A stretch of 64,000 bases of DNA from a virus. Under the pieces are notes generated by a model, which was given only the letters and a program-made list of their open reading frames with translations, was not told where the DNA came from and searched no databases. Position 1 is the first letter of the stretch. The number at the start of each line of letters is the position of its first letter. Location of the stretch: IMG/VR virus record IMGVR_UViG_3300026538_000054, positions 1-64,000 of that record. One strand, written 5' to 3'. A program made the translations under genes and the position numbers. This document shows, piece by piece, positions 3,476-37,925 of this stretch.

Positions 3476-6400
3476 ATGGACCACCAAAGGCTGATTCCTC
3501 CTATGGAGGAGAATGAGTTGCCGCCGGGCCCCTCCTTTCTCGAGCAGGCCGAGCTCATGGGCGGCGGCAACTCCCTTGTAGAACTGCGACGAGACGTTCT
3601 CTACCGAAACGGGACGTGTCTGAACGTTCGGGTCAAGAAGGCGATCGTCACCGTCTCCTGCATCATCGGGCATCTCTGGGGCGAGGAGCTGCCCAGAGGC
3701 CCCGTCCCGGCTGACGTGATGGTCGTTGGCAAGTGGCCCGGCGATCAGGAGGCCTCGGCCCGAAGAAACCTGACCGGCCCGTCGGGCATCATGCTCTCCG
3801 AGTGTCTGAAAGAAGCCGGCGTCACGGGTGACGTGCAGGGAGGCCTCTACGTCACCAACCTGGTCAAACACCCCAGGGCCGACCCGTCTACGGACCAGGT
3901 CTCCTCCACGCAGTTCAAGGACTGGGCCCCGGTCCTTTCCGACGAGATCGCGCTGGTCAGGCCCAAGCTCATTCTCGCCCTGGGCGCCGAGGCCGCCAAG
4001 GCCGTGCTTGGCGCGAAGACGGCCGTCAAGGACGCGCAGTGCTGCTACTTCGAGCGGCAAGTCAGGGCCTTTGGCGAACATCCCGCCTACGCGGCCAGGG
4101 TCGTGGTGGTGACCCACCCTGCGGCCGTGGTGCGCTCCCCGGAGCAGCGCGCCTTCTTCATGGACGGGCTGCGTTACTTCGCAGGCGCCCTTCAGGGCAA
4201 GGTGCAGGCCAAGGAAGCGCCTGTGGACCATCGCGTGGTCTTTGAAGAGGACGAGCTTGCGCAAGTCGTGGACATGGTGATTCAGCGAGGAGGTCCGTCA
4301 CCCCTCATCGTCGTTGACGCCGAGTGGCACGGCGAGCACCAGTCGGAGAACGGCGCTTACCTACGTACCATCCAGTTCTCCGATCAACCGCGCTTCGGCT
4401 GCTGCGTGGTCTTGAGAGGGCAAGGAGGCGGCCCTGGTTTCTGCCCGTCGATCTCCCGCGCCGTCCCTCACCTGCGCAGGCTGTTGACCTCCTCTCCCGG
4501 AAGAGAAGTGCGCATCGCCGGCCACCATCTGCGTGCCGACATCCCGCGCATTTATCACGAGCTGGACAAGGAGCTGGGGCTGGCCCTGATGCGCCAGTAC
4601 GAGGCCGCCAAGAGCCCGGAGGAGATGCGCACCAGGGGCGGCCACGACACCATGCTCATGGCCCACGCGATCAGGGAGACCGGCTTCGCCGAGGGCTTCA
4701 AGCTGGAGTACGTGGCGCAGTCGCTTTTGGGGATGAAGCGCTGGAACGTCGAGCTGGAGCAGTGGAAGCACGACTACTGCCTCAAGCGAAAGATCCCGCA
4801 GAAACATCTGGAGGGTTATGGCGAGTGTCCTGACGAGGTTTTGCACCTTTACTCGATATACGACGTGGATGGCCCACAGAGGCTGCTCGAGCTCTTCACC
4901 AGGCCCGGCGGGCTTCTCGATGCGGACGAGCACGGCAACTCCTCCTGGTTGCCCTACTGGATCAGCATGCGGGCGCAGCAAGCATGGCTCGAGATCGAGA
5001 TGACTGGCCTCTACACCGACAAGAAGGAGAGAGGCCGAGAGCTCACGGAGACCTATCACCAGGCCGCCGTCGCGCTTCTTCAGGAGCTGAAGGTTGACGC
5101 GAACTGGACTGCGTTCAACCCTGGCAGCCACTTCGACTGTCGGGAGCTGCTTTTCGGCGAGCAGTACGCGGGCCGGAAGGACGACCGGACCAGGCCTCAG
5201 GGCGCGGTGTCGCTCTATCTCACTCCCGTCAGGACCACGGGCAAGCCGCCCAAGAACTGGGAAAAGGTGGTAGCTCGCAATGAGCAAGGGCTTTATACGC
5301 CATCGACTGACAAGGAGGTCCTGGGCATCCTTGCGCCCGGTAACCCCCTGGTGAAGAAGCTGCGCAACTGGCGCTTCCTGAGGCAGGTCACTACCAACTC
5401 TCTCAGGGCCCCTGAGACCGACGATGATGGACTGGTGGTGGAGGGCGATGACGGCGAGCCCTTGCAGCTGGGTGGTCTCCTGGGCTCGGTCCGCAGGGAT
5501 GGCCGGATCTACTCGCACTTCTTCCAGACGCAGGAGACAGGCAGGGCGCGATCCGTTAGGCCCAACCTGATGAACTGTACGAAGAGGAGGGAGAAGGACT
5601 ACAAGAAGATCCTTGGTGCGCACTACAAGTACGCCGTCCGTAGCATGTTCACGGCCACGCCCGTGGCGGAGGGCGAGGACCCCTGGCTGCTTGTGGACTT
5701 CGATCTCAAGGGTGCCGAGCTGATGATGACGGCCATCCAGGCGGCCGATCCCGTCATGCTTGACCATTGCCGTCGCAACAACCTGGATGAGGACGACCCG
5801 AACTATTACGACATCCACTCTGCGACGGCCGTGCGAGCCTTTAAGCTGCCATGCCCGCCTACCAAGAAGGGCCTGGAAGGTATCGGCAGGGAGAACTTGC
5901 GCATAGCCGCCAAGTGCGTTGTCTCAGGCTCCAGGCTCCAGACCACGGCTGGCTGGTTTCTGGTCGACTCGCTAGCGGGCGATCTTCCGCCTGACCAGGG
6001 CCGTCTCCATACCGGTGGCCTGGGAGTAGTCAATCACGTCTCGACGACGCCGGTCGTTGGCGTCTACAACGGCGGCGTCAAGCCGTGTCTGCGGGTCGAG
6101 ACCGAGGACGGCTACTCGCTGGAGAGTACGTACACGCATCGCTACTGGGTCATGGGCCCTGACGGCGACATGGTCTTCAAGCAGGCTGGCGATCTTCGGC
6201 TCGGCGACTGGGTGGTTGTGCGTGACGCGGTCGGCCCCTTCGGCGACGATATTGCGTTCCCGAAGGTCCCCTGCTCGCCCAGGACGAGCTTCAAGCCCGT
6301 CGATTTCCCCGAGGAGTTCACCGAGGACTGGGCCGCCTTCCTGGGCCTTTATATCTCTGAGGGCTGGTCCGATCCGGTGAGCGGCGCGGTGGCGATGCAC

Positions 6401-7882
6401 CTTGCGCGAGAGAAAGACCCCGAGCTGGCGGACTTGACGATCGATTTGTACAGACGCCTGTTCGGGGGCCGACCACGTTTTGAAAGCGCCTTCCCCACTG
6501 GCTACCAGGAGCAGACGCGCTACCTGATTAGTTCTGTGGCTCTCGCTCGGTGGATCTACGCGTTCTGCCCAGGGAAAGCTGAGCAGAAGCGCGTGCCGGA
6601 CTTTGTCTTCCGCTGGCCGGAACGGTTGCTAGCGGTTTTTCTGCGCTGGTTGTTCGAGGGCGACGGCTCGATCACCAGGAACAAGACGTCCTTCAAACCG
6701 CGTTACTCGACGTCCAGCCTGGGCCTGGCTCGCGACGTCCGTACGCTGCTTCTCTCCTTCGGCATCACTTGTCACTTGGTCAAAGAGCGACGAGAGGGAT
6801 ACGACAACGACTATTACGCCATAGAGGTCAAGTCGCATCGGTCGAGGATGCGTTTCGCCGAGAAGATCGGCTGCGTTACGAAGTTGAAGACCGACCGGCT
6901 CAAGGTGACCTCGCGATACCAACGAGACTGCTACCCGATACCAGGGCAGCTCAACCGTCTTTTGGCAGTCATGCCCGGCTTGCGCGGCGTGGCCAGGGAG
7001 AAGTGTCGGGAGTGCATCCGGGAGAACGTGCGCGTCGCGTTCAACCGCGTTCGGCTCGTGATGATTATCAAGTCGGCAGACGAGGCGCTTCTGGACGAGA
7101 ACGGTCGCAAGTCCCTGGCAGCGCTTCGTGAGCTCCATCTGGCTCAGATGACGTTCCAGCAGGTAACGGCGTTGATAGACATAGGCGAGCGGCAGGTTTA
7201 CGACGTTCAGACCACTGACGAGCAGAGGCATATCGTCTCCTATGACGGTCTGTTAACTCATCAAACTTGTCTGTTCGGCCTACTGTACGGACGTGGAGAT
7301 GATGCCGTCGTTCGGGCCGTCAAGGAAGAGGAGGTGGACATCACCGCTGAGGAGGCGGCCACGGTTCGCGAGGGCATCTTTGAGGCCTACGCCGGCTTGT
7401 TGCCCTTCTTCGCGTCGGCACAGAGATGTGTGATCAGGCCTGGGCATATCACGAACTGCTTCGGACGACATCGTCGTTTCCCGATGACGAACGATCGGGA
7501 AGCGCTTGAAAAGATGAAGAGGGAGGCTGCCAACTTCAACATCCAGTCGGGCATCGCCGACCTGGTCAGCCGTTGGATGGACAAGCTCTACTCTTACCCC
7601 GGCCGCTTCTTCTCCGACGGTTCGCCGCGCTATCGCCTGGTGTTGCAGCTGCACGATGCGCTCATGGCCGAGTGCCGGGCCAGCCAACTGAGTTGGTTCT
7701 GCGAGGTCGTCATCCCTTCCACCCTGGCCTCCATCCCCGTCTACCGCTGTGACATGGACGGTAAGCGGCTCTCCGCCGAGCCGTTCCATCTCTCCACCGA
7801 CATCGACGTGCAGTACCGCTGGGGCGAGACGCTCACGCCCGAGTTGGCTGATAAGTTGCATGTTCCGCCCGACCTGATCTAG
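3476..7882 (+). CDS. Family A DNA polymerase with N-terminal UDG-like domain, containing an intein
   Basis: 1468 codons including the intein; the spliced protein would be 1018 residues. Residues about 78-235 look like a uracil-DNA glycosylase superfamily domain: GKWPGDQEA (85-93), TNLVKHPR (127-134), ILALGAEA (166 on) and THPAAV (213-218). A DEDD-type 3'-5' exonuclease domain follows, with D281 and E283 in VVDAEWHG. The family A polymerase domain has motif A DFDLKGAEL from D741, motif B RIAAK continuing as TCLFGLLYG across the intein, and motif C LHDALMAE with D1394. The gene sits downstream of helicase and primase. Fusion of a UDG-like domain to the polymerase suggests scanning or repair of uracil during replication; whether it is active is unknown. 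Confidence 0.9.
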   Translation: MDHQRLIPPMEENELPPGPSFLEQAELMGGGNSLVELRRDVLYRNGTCLNVRVKKAIVTVSCIIGHLWGEELPRGPVPADVMVVGKWPGDQEASARRNLTGPSGIMLSECLKEAGVTGDVQGGLYVTNLVKHPRADPSTDQVSSTQFKDWAPVLSDEIALVRPKLILALGAEAAKAVLGAKTAVKDAQCCYFERQVRAFGEHPAYAARVVVVTHPAAVVRSPEQRAFFMDGLRYFAGALQGKVQAKEAPVDHRVVFEEDELAQVVDMVIQRGGPSPLIVVDAEWHGEHQSENGAYLRTIQFSDQPRFGCCVVLRGQGGGPGFCPSISRAVPHLRRLLTSSPGREVRIAGHHLRADIPRIYHELDKELGLALMRQYEAAKSPEEMRTRGGHDTMLMAHAIRETGFAEGFKLEYVAQSLLGMKRWNVELEQWKHDYCLKRKIPQKHLEGYGECPDEVLHLYSIYDVDGPQRLLELFTRPGGLLDADEHGNSSWLPYWISMRAQQAWLEIEMTGLYTDKKERGRELTETYHQAAVALLQELKVDANWTAFNPGSHFDCRELLFGEQYAGRKDDRTRPQGAVSLYLTPVRTTGKPPKNWEKVVARNEQGLYTPSTDKEVLGILAPGNPLVKKLRNWRFLRQVTTNSLRAPETDDDGLVVEGDDGEPLQLGGLLGSVRRDGRIYSHFFQTQETGRARSVRPNLMNCTKRREKDYKKILGAHYKYAVRSMFTATPVAEGEDPWLLVDFDLKGAELMMTAIQAADPVMLDHCRRNNLDEDDPNYYDIHSATAVRAFKLPCPPTKKGLEGIGRENLRIAAKCVVSGSRLQTTAGWFLVDSLAGDLPPDQGRLHTGGLGVVNHVSTTPVVGVYNGGVKPCLRVETEDGYSLESTYTHRYWVMGPDGDMVFKQAGDLRLGDWVVVRDAVGPFGDDIAFPKVPCSPRTSFKPVDFPEEFTEDWAAFLGLYISEGWSDPVSGAVAMHLAREKDPELADLTIDLYRRLFGGRPRFESAFPTGYQEQTRYLISSVALARWIYAFCPGKAEQKRVPDFVFRWPERLLAVFLRWLFEGDGSITRNKTSFKPRYSTSSLGLARDVRTLLLSFGITCHLVKERREGYDNDYYAIEVKSHRSRMRFAEKIGCVTKLKTDRLKVTSRYQRDCYPIPGQLNRLLAVMPGLRGVAREKCRECIRENVRVAFNRVRLVMIIKSADEALLDENGRKSLAALRELHLAQMTFQQVTALIDIGERQVYDVQTTDEQRHIVSYDGLLTHQTCLFGLLYGRGDDAVVRAVKEEEVDITAEEAATVREGIFEAYAGLLPFFASAQRCVIRPGHITNCFGRHRRFPMTNDREALEKMKREAANFNIQSGIADLVSRWMDKLYSYPGRFFSDGSPRYRLVLQLHDALMAECRASQLSWFCEVVIPSTLASIPVYRCDMDGKRLSAEPFHLSTDIDVQYRWGETLTPELADKLHVPPDLI
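5915..7264 (+). other. Intein with LAGLIDADG homing endonuclease, in polymerase motif B
   Basis: 450 residues (814-1263 of the precursor). It starts with Cys (CVVSGSRL, splicing block A), has a block B-like ESTYTHRYWV, two LAGLIDADG motifs (FLGLYISEGW near 955 and FLRWLFEGDGS near 1055) and ends with block F/G YDVQTT then LLTHQ. The next residue is Thr. Removing the segment restores a standard motif B (RIAAK-TCLFGLLYG), which fixes both borders. The last intein residue is Gln rather than the usual Asn, a known but less common variant. The two dodecapeptide motifs suggest the homing endonuclease may still be functional. Confidence 0.93.
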
Positions 7883-19141: not shown

Positions 19142-19735
19142 ATGAGCGAAGGCGCCTATATCGTCGGCAAGAATGGCGATAGCGATAAGCCACCACGGAT
19201 CGTCATCAACCCTGACTTCGACGGCGGCAAGGAGACCATGCCCTCCCGCCCTGTTGTCAGGGACGTTCCTATCGCCTCAACGCCTCAGGGCCGTTCGGGC
19301 GGGCTTAACGCCGGAACGGCCGTCACGGCCGAGGCCTTTGCAAGCCCGCGCGGGCCTTTGCCGTCGCGCGAGCCGGCCCCTCTTCCCGCTGCCCCTATCG
19401 CTTCTCCACCGCCGGCCAAGAAGCATGTTCGCGTCACCTTTGAGCGAGAAGGCAGGGACGGTCGCCCCGGCGATGTCGTCGAGGCCGTCTTCCACGAGGT
19501 GGTCATCCACGACGACGGGCTTTTCCTCACTCTGGTTTATGACCACGAGGGCGGCTCACAGTTCGTCTACCGTCCGGCCTTTACGGACGAGGCGCTGGCC
19601 GTTTGCGTCCACGGCGAGGACAACCGGCCCGATCGCGTCTTCCTTTGCTTCGCTACGGGCTACCGACTACGACATGGTCGGTTCGAGTATCAAGCCTTGA
19701 CGATTGGCGACGGGGCCCTGGTGGAGGGCCGGTAA
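19142..19735 (+). CDS. Hypothetical protein
   Basis: 197 residues from ATG at 19142. Disordered Pro-rich region at residues 40-95, then a beta-rich C-terminal domain (KKHVRVTFERE, EAVFHEVVIHDDG). Its stop overlaps the portal start (TAATG), so it is probably made together with the portal. Confidence 0.6.
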   Translation: MSEGAYIVGKNGDSDKPPRIVINPDFDGGKETMPSRPVVRDVPIASTPQGRSGGLNAGTAVTAEAFASPRGPLPSREPAPLPAAPIASPPPAKKHVRVTFEREGRDGRPGDVVEAVFHEVVIHDDGLFLTLVYDHEGGSQFVYRPAFTDEALAVCVHGEDNRPDRVFLCFATGYRLRHGRFEYQALTIGDGALVEGR

Positions 19736-24786: not shown

Positions 24787-24823
24787 GCGCCAAGGCTCTC
24801 TGCAGCGGACTAAATGCTGCAAA
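24787..24823 (+). repeat. Degenerate CRISPR-repeat-like element upstream of cas12
   Basis: GCGCCAAGGCTCTCTGCAGC then GGACTAAATGCTGC. Diverged in both stem arms (GGCTC and GGACT instead of AGCCC and GGGCT). It lies 126 bases before the cas12 start, in the same sense, so it could be part of its regulatory region. Confidence 0.75.
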
Positions 24824-24948: not shown

Positions 24949-26835
24949 TTGAGCGAACAACTTGACGACACGCCCGAACAACCGAACGAGGTCGAAGAGA
25001 CCAAGAAGAGGAAACAACGCAACAAAGGCAAGCACCCGGCCAGGATCTGGAGCGTCTTCTCCAGATACCTGGTCTCGGGGCGTGAGCACTTCGACAAGCA
25101 GGTGCTCCTGGCCCATCGGTTCAGGAACAAGCTCGTGGAGCTGGAGCTCCAGCGGCGCGCCGCCGCCAACGTCGTGATCGCGCAGGCCTCTTCCGAGCTG
25201 CAGCCTTTGATCGACGCCCTGGCCGCCGCTGAGCAGGTTCTCGAAGTCAGTCTTCAAGAGCTGAAGGCCGTGAGGGCCAAGCACAGGAGAAGGGCTGAAA
25301 GCGCGGCGCAACGAGATGCTGTCACCAACGCGAGGACGGCTAGGAACCAGGCCTCCAAGGCCCTCTCTAAAGCCAGGAAGGACGCCTTCGCTTCCGAGGC
25401 GGCGCAGGTCGGCCTCTGGCTTGCGGAGGAGCACCACTTCCAGGCCGTCCTGGCCGCCCGTCATGCTTTCATCAACGACGGCCTCTACTGGCCGACGGCC
25501 ACGGACGTCCAGGACCGTGCGCGCGCCATGCGAAAGGGTGCCCCTCCCGTCTTCAGGCGGTTCGGCGGCGCGGAGCAAGCGGGCCGCATCGCCGTCCAGA
25601 TCCAGAAGAGCACCGACAAGTCCCAGTCTGAGGGCGGCATCACCTTTGAGGAGGCCTTCTCCTGCTCCCACGGCTTCTTCCGGCTGGAGAAGAAGCCAGG
25701 GCGCGACCCTTTGCCAGAGATCGCCGACCAGCCCGACTACAAGTCCAAACGGCAACAGCTCCTGACCTACGCCCGCGCCTGGCTGCGCGTCGGCTCGGAG
25801 GGCAAGGGCGCCAGGGCCAAGCCCTGCTGGGTCGTCGCCGATGTGCTTCTCACCCGGCAGGCCCCCAAGACGGCGCGGATCGTCCAGGTCTACCTGGACC
25901 ACTCGGTGATCGGCGATCGAGAGCGCTGGCGACTCAGCTTGGTGCTCACCAACCAAGAGGGCTGGCCCAAGCCCAACCGGGCCTCGGGCTGCATGGTCGG
26001 TATTGACCTCGGCTGGCGACTGCTCGATACCGGTGAGCTGCGAGTCGCCTACGCCTGCGGCGCCGATGGACAGCACCACGAGCTGCGGCTGCCCGCCTCC
26101 CTGGTCAAGGTCTGGCGCCGGCCCGATCGCATCCAGCAGGAGAGGGACAACCTCTTCAACGACGTCAAGGCGAGGCTCCTTGAGTGGCTCAAAGGGAGGG
26201 AGGACCTTCCCGACTGGCTCAAGGAGCAAGCGGAGCATCTGCATCTCTGGAAGTCATCCACCAGGCTCTCGCGGCTGGTGGATCACTGGGCCGGTCGAGA
26301 TATCAACTGGTCGAGCCAGAGGCGCATCGCCGGGGACGAGGAGATCCTCGCGTCCTTGCGCGGCTGGGTGAAACGCAACCTCCACCTGCGCGACTACCAG
26401 TATCACGAGCGTGAGCAGTTGGCGGCCCATCGTCTTGATGTCTACAGGAAGTGGGCTGACGGTCTGGCCAGGCTCTACCAGACGGCCGTCCTCGAAGACG
26501 CCGACTGGCGAGACCTAGCGCGACTCCCATCGCCTGAAGACGACGCCGTCAACGAGACCGCGCGCTACAACCAACGCATGGCCTCGCCCGGTCTACTGGC
26601 CTCCGTGATCACGAACATGTTCGCGATCACGAGCAGGGTGGAGTGCGCGAACACCACCAGGGAGTGCTGGCGCTGCGGCCATACGGAGGCGTTCGACGCC
26701 GAGGCGCAGTTGATCAGGGTTTGTCCTGGCTGCGGTGATGCGTGCGACCAAGACGAGAGCGCTGCTCGCGTCCTGCTCGCGAGAGGGCAGGCCCTAAACC
26801 AGTCACAAGTCGCCGAAGCTGCGCCAAGTTCTTGA
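24949..26835 (+). CDS. Compact Cas12-family (type V) CRISPR effector, Cas12m-like
   Basis: 628 residues from TTG at 24949, with AAGGAG upstream. The split RuvC nuclease domain is readable: RuvC-I GIDLGWRL with D353, RuvC-II TAVLEDADW with E516, a zinc ribbon CWRC (573-576) and CPGC (592-595), and RuvC-III DQDESAARVLL with D602. The N-terminal 340 residues are basic and partly coiled-coil, consistent with guide-RNA and PAM recognition lobes. It is larger than TnpB and much smaller than Cas12a. The GxDLGWR plus ELRVAYA signature and the size recall Cas12m/V-U1; other small phage Cas12 types are possible. Characterised Cas12m proteins bind rather than cut DNA, although all three acidic residues seem present here. 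No cas1, cas2 or cas4 is nearby; the CRISPR array follows. Confidence 0.85.
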   Translation: MSEQLDDTPEQPNEVEETKKRKQRNKGKHPARIWSVFSRYLVSGREHFDKQVLLAHRFRNKLVELELQRRAAANVVIAQASSELQPLIDALAAAEQVLEVSLQELKAVRAKHRRRAESAAQRDAVTNARTARNQASKALSKARKDAFASEAAQVGLWLAEEHHFQAVLAARHAFINDGLYWPTATDVQDRARAMRKGAPPVFRRFGGAEQAGRIAVQIQKSTDKSQSEGGITFEEAFSCSHGFFRLEKKPGRDPLPEIADQPDYKSKRQQLLTYARAWLRVGSEGKGARAKPCWVVADVLLTRQAPKTARIVQVYLDHSVIGDRERWRLSLVLTNQEGWPKPNRASGCMVGIDLGWRLLDTGELRVAYACGADGQHHELRLPASLVKVWRRPDRIQQERDNLFNDVKARLLEWLKGREDLPDWLKEQAEHLHLWKSSTRLSRLVDHWAGRDINWSSQRRIAGDEEILASLRGWVKRNLHLRDYQYHEREQLAAHRLDVYRKWADGLARLYQTAVLEDADWRDLARLPSPEDDAVNETARYNQRMASPGLLASVITNMFAITSRVECANTTRECWRCGHTEAFDAEAQLIRVCPGCGDACDQDESAARVLLARGQALNQSQVAEAAPSS

Positions 26836-26894: not shown

Positions 26895-27015
26895 TACTAG
26901 TTAGTGTTTACGGCGGCTACCGTGTAGCAACTTGTCGTAACGGGTCGTCTGGTTGGTAACGCGCTCGCGTGGCTGGTTGTAACCTCTTGTCCTATCGCGT
27001 GCTACGCTACCGAGG

Positions 27016-28304
27016 GTGACAAAGCCCTGTGCAGCGGGCTCAAAGCTGCGACGGGTCGTGAGCCGTCTGCTCGAGACGGTCGGCGATCTGGTGACAAAGC
27101 CCTGTGCAGCGGGCTCAAAGCTGCGACTCGCTCATGGTTGCGTTCCTTTCGGTGGACCCGGTGGTGACAAAGCCCTGTGCAGCGGGCTCAAAGCTGCGAC
27201 TACAAGACCTGGATGACGATCTTCCCCAACGTCCCGCAGTGACAAAGCCCTGTGCAGCGGGCTCAAAGCTGCGACGTTGTCCGGCGGCTTCGGCTCGACC
27301 TGGATGATCTCGTGACAAAGCCCTGTGCAGCGGGCTCAATGCTGCGACGTACTATGTACCGGAAAAGGCTCTCGAGGAGGCCGTGTGACAAAGCCCTGTG
27401 CAGCGGGCTCAAAGCTGCGACGGCGGCTGTCTTCGAGTTCGCCTCCGGGAGGAGATGGTGACAAAGCCCTGTGCAGCGGGCTCAAAGCTGCGACTAATGC
27501 TCCTTTAACAGGCGGAACGCTTCTTCCGCCGTGACAAAGCCCTGTGCAGCGGGCTCAAAGCTGCGACAAACCGTGCCGAAAGGTATCCTCATGTCCGATT
27601 CGTGACAAAGCCCTGTGCAGCGGGCTCAAAGCTGCGACGTGCTGCTCGGGCTGCTCGGGCTGCTTGGGCTGCTTGGGGTGACAAAGCCCTGTGCAGCGGG
27701 CTCAAAGCTGCGACCGGCAAGCTGGACGTTCAGCGAGCGGCCGACGTGATGTGACAAAGCCCTGTGCAGCGGGCTCAAAGCTGCGACTAGCTGGCTGCCT
27801 TGCACGACTGCGCAAATGCCCGGAAGTGACAAAGCCCTGTGCAGCGGGCTCAAAGCTGCGACTGGGTGCGCGTTGACCAGGACAACCGCGAGCTGATCGG
27901 TGACAAAGCCCTGTGCAGCGGGCTCAAAGCTGCGACTCCAGCAACTGGGGCCCAGGCCGACCCTCGGGCACATCGTGACAAAGCCCTGTGCAGCGGGCTC
28001 AAAGCTGCGACGACCGGCGTTCCTCAAGTCGCAACACGGCCTTGCCAGGTGACAAAGCCCTGTGCAGCGGGCTCAAAGCTGCGACGCACATGTGTTCTTT
28101 TGTCCCCTGCTTCGCCACCGTGTAACAAAGCCCTGTGCAGCGGGCTCAAAGCTGCGACGGTTGCTGCCGACCGCTTGGTCGCGGAGGAGGTTCGCGTGCC
28201 AAAGCCCTCCCCAGTGGGCTAAAAGCTGCGACCGCCACTCCGTCACTTGAATGCTGTCGGTCTTTTTGTGCCAAAGCCCTACGCAGCGGGCTACAAGCTG
28301 CAAC
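27016..28304 (+). CRISPR. CRISPR array, 18 repeats, 17 spacers
   Basis: The repeat is 37 bases: GTGACAAAGCCCTGTGCAGC followed by GGGCTCAAAGCTGCGAC. Repeats start at 27016, 27091, 27164, 27239, 27312, 27385, 27458, 27531, 27602, 27678, 27751, 27826, 27900, 27975, 28049, 28122, 28196 and 28268. Fourteen are identical. 27312 has CAATGCTG instead of CAAAGCTG, 28122 starts GTAAC, and the last two are strongly degenerate, which marks the right end as the trailer. Spacers are 34-39 bases. Spacer 1 (27053-27090) matches this same window exactly at 37632-37669. Spacer 9 (27639-27677) is low-complexity. I found no other internal match by eye. The repeat can form an AGCCC/GGGCT stem. The 121 bases between the hairpin and the first repeat are the leader. 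Confidence 0.97.
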
Positions 28305-36933: not shown

Positions 36934-36973
36934 AGAGACAAGGCCGGTGGCAATTGCCACCGGCCTTGTCTCT
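36934..36973. terminator. 40-bp perfect palindrome, copy 1
   Basis: AGAGACAAGGCCGGTGGCAA followed by its exact reverse complement, then TTCTCTT. A bidirectional terminator or cruciform between the regulator and the repeat cluster. Confidence 0.75.
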
Positions 36974-37030: not shown

Positions 37031-37204
37031 GTACCAGAGCCATACGCAGCGGGCTAAAAGCTGCGAAGGATGGCGACCTGTGTCAAAGCCCTGCGCAGCG
37101 GGCTGAATGCTGCGAGAGGATGTCCCACTCCCTGGCCACGGTGGGTGACAAAGCCCTTTGCAGCGGGCTTAAAGCTGCGACGCAGCGGGGTAAGTGCTGT
37201 AACA
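37031..37204 (+). repeat. Cluster of three CRISPR-like repeats plus one fragment
   Basis: Copies at 37031-37067, 37080-37116 and 37145-37181, and a truncated one (GCAGCGGGGTAAGTGCTG) at 37183-37204. The copy at 37145 (GTGACAAAGCCCTTTGCAGC) is close to the array consensus. Intervals are only 12 and 28 bases, too short for normal spacers. The cluster lies directly upstream of the gene that array spacer 1 matches. Confidence 0.85.
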
Positions 37205-37223: not shown

Positions 37224-37724
37224 ATGTCCGAACACGAGTTGCTGCGCTCCATCAATCAACGCCTCGCACACATAGGCCGCTCGACGGACGCTATCGCCTC
37301 GGCTGTCTTCCTTATCGTGCGAAAGTTGCTCGATGAGGAGCAAGGTGGCCTGTCGCCCGAAGACGCCGCCAAAGTGCTCGCCCGACTGACGGCCCACGAC
37401 CAAGCTCTCGAGGACATCGTCGCCGAGCAAACCGACGAGAGCTCTTCCACGCTCGGCAAACACCACTCAGTAGCGAGAACCGCGATGGCTATTCCGCAAG
37501 CCTTGCAGGACATCTTGGCCAAGATTGACGCCGACACCAGCGCCCTGGCCGCGGTGGTCCTGGACCTGCGCAACAAGATCAGCACGGGCATGTCCCAGGA
37601 GGACGTGGTCGCCGTACAGACCACCCTGGGTCAGATCGCCGACCGTCTCGAGCAGACGGCTCACGACCCCAACGCGCCGGTGCCGCCCGGCCCTCAACCG
37701 GTCTTCGCCGGCCGCAAGCCGTAA
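37224..37724 (+). CDS. Coiled-coil phage protein, target of array spacer 1
   Basis: 166 residues from ATG at 37224. Two similar helical modules, IASAVFLIVRKLLDEEQGG and LAAVVLDLRNKISTGMS, each followed by a coiled-coil helix, with a PNAPVPPGP tail. Similar short coiled-coil proteins occur beside phage tail and virion genes. The gene is framed by two 40-bp perfect palindromes, preceded by a CRISPR-repeat cluster, and contains the exact protospacer of spacer 1 at codons about 137-149. Confidence 0.65.
   Translation: MSEHELLRSINQRLAHIGRSTDAIASAVFLIVRKLLDEEQGGLSPEDAAKVLARLTAHDQALEDIVAEQTDESSSTLGKHHSVARTAMAIPQALQDILAKIDADTSALAAVVLDLRNKISTGMSQEDVVAVQTTLGQIADRLEQTAHDPNAPVPPGPQPVFAGRKP
37632..37669 (-). 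other. Protospacer matching array spacer 1 (38 of 38)
   Basis: The minus strand from 37669 to 37632 is identical to spacer 1 at 27053-27090 (starts GGGTCGTGAGCCGTC, ends GGTCGGCGATCTG). The five bases 5' of the protospacer on that strand are CGTTG, so TTG is adjacent, as expected for T-rich type V PAMs. The 3' flank (ACCCAG) differs from the repeat, so the array itself is distinguishable from the target. Confidence 0.95.
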
Positions 37725-37808
37725 GGCGGCCAAGAGATCACGTTGTTCGGTAGGTGGTCGGAACGAGCCGAGTGCCCCTCACGGGGAGTCGGCTCGTTTC
37801 GTTTTCCC

Positions 37809-37820
37809 TTTTCCGGAAAA
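37809..37820. promoter_or_regulatory. TTTTCCGGAAAA palindrome
   Basis: Perfect 12-bp palindrome in the gap between the + and - gene blocks. A half-site AACGGAAAA follows at about 37890. The rest of 37821-37925 shows imperfect GGCCTA/TAGCC repeats and no gene. Confidence 0.6.
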
Positions 37821-37925
37821 CGTTTTGTCGCGTGCGTGTTAACCTGGCGACAGGCCTACTCGGCGGCCTAATAGCCGAGAAGTAGCCTAGAACGGAAAAA
37901 GAAACGAGCTAATAGCTAAAAGAAA

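Follow-up and report, generated by a model that had tools for sequence, protein, structure and literature searches.

The window analyzed here, a stretch of 64,000 nucleotides, belongs to a 199,122-bp contig that carries both a CRISPR array and a gene matched by the first spacer of that array. The features on which the analysis turns are listed below.

24949 to 26835, plus strand: cas12m-like type V-M effector gene, 628 aa, with a D-E-D RuvC site and a zinc ribbon (C573/C576/C592/C595)
27000 to 27008, plus strand: extended -10 of the array leader, TGCTACGCT, a motif match only
27016 to 28304, plus strand: CRISPR array with 17 spacers of 34 to 39 nt between 18 repeats, each of 37 nt
27053 to 27090, plus strand: spacer 1, 38 nt, self-matching, between two perfect 37-nt repeats, predicted to fold as a whole-length hairpin
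28086 to 28121, plus strand: spacer 15, matching at 34/36 bases an insertion sequence that lies on the phage contig beyond the window
36934 to 36973, plus strand: terminator-like hairpin preceding the 37224 unit
37031 to 37181, plus strand: three handle-like repeats in the 37224 leader, with intervals of 12 and 28 nt (called a mini-array in an earlier note on this DNA)
37224 to 37724, plus strand: target gene 37224, 166 aa, a predicted all-helical orphan in a single-gene unit
37632 to 37669, minus strand: spacer 1 protospacer, codons 136 to 148 of the 166 of gene 37224
37670 to 37672, minus strand: candidate PAM, the 5'-TTG flank of the protospacer
37781 to 37822, plus strand: terminator-like hairpins downstream of gene 37224

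The protein encoded at 24949 matched the PADLOC profile Cas12u1 (V-U1) at 4.9e-75 and, in a phmmer search, the Cas12m of PDB entry 23vw at 2.8e-52. Foldseek analysis of its medium-confidence structural model placed Cas12m2 or Cas12m at all of ranks 1 to 4 (8hhl, 2.6e-22), with TM scores of 0.40 to 0.48. The RuvC residues align as D-E-D with those of Meiothermus silvanus Cas12m and of phage relatives, and the protein is approximately 30% identical to characterized Cas12m proteins. As in other type V-M systems, there is a single protein of suitable size (628 aa, compared with approximately 500 to 700 aa), a RuvC site of a known type (D-E-D), and an adjoining array with a stem-plus-pseudoknot repeat. 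By profile, sequence, and predicted fold, the effector is a phage-encoded type V-M Cas12m.

The array starts 180 nt downstream of the cas12m-like gene. Its repeat contains the pairings AGCCC/GGGCT and GCAGC/GCTGC and ends in GAC, giving a stem plus pseudoknot. This is the layout of the Cas12m handle (PMC10442227), and comparison with the repeats of relatives showed that it is common to this repeat and other Cas12m repeats. The last two repeats, at 28196 and 28268, are degenerate (6 mismatches each), and the extended -10 precedes the first repeat; spacer 1 is therefore leader-proximal, as had been proposed earlier. A consensus sigma-70 scan revealed no full promoters around the region, the extended -10 having come from a separate positional test, and no Rfam families were detected in the window.

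Comparison of spacer 1 (GGGTCGTGAGCCGTCTGCTCGAGACGGTCGGCGATCTG, 38 nt) with the whole 199-kb contig reproduced the match reported in the earlier note: minus-strand positions 37669 to 37632 are identical to the spacer at 38 of 38 bases, and the second-best match reaches 25/38. An exact match to a 38-mer among approximately 4e5 positions is expected by chance about 5e-18 times, and the match is thus not a chance event. The self-match is genuine and nonrandom, and spacer 1 has the properties of a self-targeting spacer, namely, a match to the carrier genome that lies outside the array and exceeds chance. Both flanks of the protospacer also proved to be as previously described. On the 5' side, the protospacer is preceded by GCGTTG, with TTG at positions -3 to -1; on the 3' side, it is followed by ACCC, where the repeat has GTGA.

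Such a match could have arisen if the array and the protospacer belonged to two different phage variants that metagenomic assembly had fused into a single contig. The draft assembly does consist of multiple contigs, and one base of the window deviates from the contig (position 38798, G in the window and A in the contig), but this is the sole difference in 64,000 bases and lies away from both loci. Moreover, the contig ends share a 100-bp exact direct repeat, and once the ends are joined, a 472-aa transposase frame reads across them without interruption. This frame belongs to an insertion sequence and crosses the contig junction (reverse complement, positions ~1 to 900 and 198494 to 199022). 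The ends make it very probable that the contig represents a complete circular molecule, and the intactness of the transposase frame across the closure makes gross misjoining unlikely. The flanks are unrelated on both sides of the match, which argues against a repeat-induced join. We consider an assembly mixture very unlikely.

Positions 3476 to 7882 of the window encode a UDG-DNA polymerase A fusion split by a LAGLIDADG intein, and a DnaB-like helicase is also encoded on the contig. The nearest named phage by effector is Virus Rctr197k, with a genome of 197 kb. We read the contig as a large phage that was binned alongside a bacterial genome, with the bacterium of the bin as a candidate host only. 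Cas1 was absent from both the phage and the rest of the binned genome, which suggests that the spacer was gained via help in trans or by recombination. Recombination between the repeats at 37031 to 37181 and the main array was considered as a source of spacer 1 and was rejected, since no handles flank the protospacer.

An exact self-match would be lethal if the effector cut its target. However, the Cas12m proteins tested so far, with D-E-D, H-D-D, or N-D-D sites, obstruct transcription by binding PAM-flanked targets and leave double-stranded DNA uncut, and MsCas12m processes pre-crRNA while cleaving neither DNA nor RNA (PMC11013384). The PAM of MmCas12m2 and GoCas12m is TTN, with which the TTG flank agrees, but some orthologs use C-rich PAMs. 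Silencing by GoCas12m works from within a coding region (PMC11013384), and silencing by Cas12m2 works even from a site in the 3'-UTR (PMC10442227). For the phage effector, binding without cleavage, a TTN-type PAM, and silencing from inside or 3' of genes are taken from these published orthologs. The PAM-side data from the phage itself are TTG at one protospacer and AATC at the partial match of spacer 15. Among the four PAM-reading residues of Cas12m2, only Trp152 and Gln197 appear to be kept and Tyr141 and Asn156 are apparently replaced by Ala and Thr, respectively, in an alignment read by eye with the Mycobacterium lentiflavum ortholog as a stand-in for Cas12m2.

By analogy with orthologs that are approximately 30% identical, the effector probably grips DNA without cutting it. 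A noncleaving effector was among the options raised earlier, and the family assignment lends it good support: the protein is a Cas12m, and the tested orthologs lack double-stranded DNA cleavage. Because those orthologs, including D-E-D ones, bind but do not cut, the "suicide" paradox is largely gone. Another of the earlier options, that the phage endures a dangerous self-target through some unknown mechanism, becomes needless given a binding-only effector family. One could still suppose that this effector does cut and that the self-target is protected otherwise, by an anti-CRISPR, DNA modification, or a lack of expression. D-E-D is the canonical nuclease triad, and the authors of the Cas12m2 study suggested that clades 3 and 4 might hydrolyze DNA (PMC10442227). 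Nevertheless, D-E-D orthologs tested later gave no double-stranded DNA cleavage (PMC11013384), and we regard a cutting effector as highly improbable.

The target gene passes as coding by its coding score. It has no PHROG assignment, its DUF4795 match fell under the cutoff, and searches of IMG/VR, phage and plasmid records, and family genomes yielded no usable relatives, only a single 32% match. A single-sequence model of its protein is all-helical, with a pLDDT of 48, and is uninformative. From the sequence, crRNA 1 would pair with the plus (coding) strand of 37224 at codons 136 to 148. An effector bound at the protospacer would halt 37224 transcripts before the stop codon, with no other gene affected.

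The self-match might also be harmless for a reason that lies in the spacer. Folding of spacer 1 gave one hairpin over nucleotides 1 to 37, with a minimum free energy of -21.7 kcal/mol (z = -3.48), and none of 200 shuffled sequences was as stable. It is the most stable fold among the 17 spacers, and only 0.44% of the TTN-flanked 38-mers in the phage fold equally stably. The predicted unpaired probability of the seed is 0.14 at full length. These values suggest that the spacer 1 guide could be self-sequestered: in the folded RNA, the seed would be hidden and the 3' end perhaps protected from trimming, which would keep crRNA 1 from ever forming an R-loop and make the self-match tolerable. The hairpin was, however, spotted post hoc, and the seeds of spacers 4 and 6 are about as closed. 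In addition, the seed opens (unpaired probability of 0.77) in a guide trimmed to 20 nt, about the usual length of trimmed Cas12m crRNAs. An inert guide is accordingly an unlikely explanation, and the hairpin is a lead rather than a result, with crRNA 1 trimming deciding between an active and an inactive guide.

When all 17 spacers were compared with the phage genome, a check proposed in the earlier note, an exact match was obtained for 1 of the 17 and a near-match (34/36) for spacer 15. The spacer 15 site lies just 5' of the transposase in the insertion sequence, its 5' flank is CAATC rather than TTN, and its two mismatches are PAM-distal. Spacer 15 was rejected on these grounds as a second self-target and is better read, from its matching site, as an anti-transposon (anti-IS) spacer. 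The 17 spacers gave short chance matches only against the other 106 contigs of the bin (5.39 Mb, 107 contigs). In searches of IMG/VR, of phage and plasmid records, and of as many as 392 family genomes, matches to the array were of low complexity (spacer 9) or at chance level, and no sister phages with the spacer 1 site were found in these collections.

Handle-like elements are not confined to the array. We found 44 further Cas12m-handle-like pseudoknots scattered over both strands of the phage. Every one of the 44 is intergenic, compared with 12% at random, with genes predicted by a crude gene caller built for this analysis. Those in the window are given below.

12004, 14408(-), 24620(-), 24794, 32749, 33201(-), 35588(-), 36870, 37038, 37087, 37152, 37852, 54665, 54738, 56824(-), 56897(-), 57076, 59259, 61215, 61286: dispersed handles, with the minus strand marked (-)
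24787 to 24823, plus strand: degenerate handle-like repeat, with the cas12m start codon approximately 129 nt downstream

The handle helices covary, with 97.8% pairing and 16 double-change cells versus 2.7 in shuffles, in a set of copies that were collected by similarity, which favors pairing. A -10-like hexamer was present at the expected place in 14 of 34 cases (first-in-cluster handles plus the array leader), versus 5.9% of random intergenic sites. These hexamers often begin exactly 20 nt before the handle, and the -10 of the array leader has the same spacing. Used as guides against the phage, the 3' flanks of the 44 handles gave no excess of matches over random 18-mers, with or without TTN. 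No dispersed handle copies were found elsewhere in IMG/VR, the phage and plasmid records, or the family genomes (up to 392). The IMG/VR phage G416 (152,857 bp) encodes two Cas12m proteins and has arrays as well as a similar scatter of 33 handles, 32 of them intergenic. A separate small group of solitary handles goes with the second Cas12m of G416, and one of these handles lies directly before the start of a gene. The dispersed handles may be Racr-like decoy RNAs (PMC10651486), leaders for Cas12m action on phage mRNAs, or decayed arrays, and they may be a more novel feature than the self-match. A broader proposal, that Cas12m is a genome-wide, binding-only self-regulator in which crRNA 1 represses 37224 by design and handles before genes, including cas12m, are bound or processed to tune mRNAs, seems to us quite unlikely.

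Selection might instead maintain crRNA 1 either to dampen 37224 at some point during infection or, as homotypic exclusion, to silence the copy carried by incoming sister phages. The protospacer is intact with a TTG flank, the target is a self-contained unit with a handle-bearing leader and terminators, and the effector family is noncleaving. Carriers of known viral mini-arrays have a mutated or deleted copy of the target (PMC6858448), whereas this phage keeps an intact one, so the escape of the carrier copy that marks interviral exclusion is not seen. Self-targeting spacers have also been recorded in type IV systems of plasmids, according to work cited in PMC11656645. Against this, only 1 of the 17 spacers is self-matching, 37224 has no relatives or known role, and the guide is predicted to be hairpinned. 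Furthermore, none of 52 spacers in two other Cas12m phages matched its own genome (0/40 intervals in G416 and 0/12 in Virus Rctr197k). The recurrent or conserved match expected of regulatory self-targeting was thus not observed, and self-matching appears to be sporadic rather than a trait of Cas12m phages. The earlier reading of the match as deliberate silencing of a phage gene is weakened by this lack of recurrence, by handle flanks that supply no guides, and by a hairpin that could disable the spacer. RNA-guided silencing of 37224 is possible, but purposeful regulation is a minority reading that we consider fairly unlikely.

The simplest account, and the one that we moderately favor, is accidental capture: the newest spacer would derive from the phage itself or from a sister phage and be tolerated, at low cost, by a binding-only Cas12m. 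The type V-M system of the phage would hold a 38-nt piece of its own genome or of a near-identical sister genome, most likely captured by chance, with adaptation occurring in trans or by recombination. Cas12m would cut the array into single crRNAs and then bind PAM-flanked DNA as a roadblock without cleavage, making the self-match survivable. The maximal effect would be lower transcription of the single-gene unit 37224, with the block falling approximately 80% of the way through the gene, and the low cost of spacer 1 would account for its persistence. The parts of this explanation that are directly observed are the exact match, the closure of the contig, and, for the effector, its family and D-E-D residues. 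We infer the production of crRNA 1 and its binding at the 37224 site, the origin of the spacer, and its low cost.

The system resembles those of MmCas12m2, GoCas12m, and MsCas12m in effector size, RuvC and zinc-ribbon layout, and predicted fold, as well as in its stem-plus-pseudoknot repeat ending in GAC, gene-adjacent array, and lack of adaptation genes. It differs from these type V-M relatives in residing on a 199-kb phage, in its approximately 30% identity, in its self-matching newest spacer, and in its dozens of scattered handles. Virus Rctr197k (KX853510), a phage of about the same size, encodes a distant Cas12m (30%) next to an array, but none of its 12 extracted spacers self-matches and its repeat sequence is different. 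At 19281 to 19535, Virus Rctr197k has a second array with another repeat, beside a transposase-like (TnpB/Cas12-like) gene. The mini-arrays of SPV1 and SPV2 (PMC6858448) likewise provide a virus with spacers against its own kind of virus. However, those arrays lack cas genes and the carrier copy is mutated or deleted, whereas the phage described here keeps its own copy intact with TTG and brings its own, probably noncleaving, effector. Cellular self-targeting spacers (PMC6990116) share the exact self-match of an array spacer; in those cutting systems, survival depends on repair, mutation, or anti-CRISPRs, whereas here the effector class alone would suffice. The dispersed handles recall the solitary repeat units of Racrs (PMC10651486), which are also single phage repeats that often lie right after a promoter. 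Racrs inhibit a host system and show no association with cas genes, whereas these phages encode the cognate effector.

What is new is the combination: an intact self-target for a CRISPR system that is carried by a phage and probably only binds DNA; in earlier viral arrays, the carrier copy escaped (PMC6858448). In the literature considered here, viral CRISPR arrays spare their carrier. The intact, PAM-flanked self-target of this phage, which brings its own probably noncutting Cas12, represents a natural setting where self-targeting may carry little cost. The system permits a direct test of whether self-spacers, normally ruled out, become permissible in CRISPR systems limited to binding. It likewise permits testing of whether phages can turn binding-only CRISPR on their own genes.
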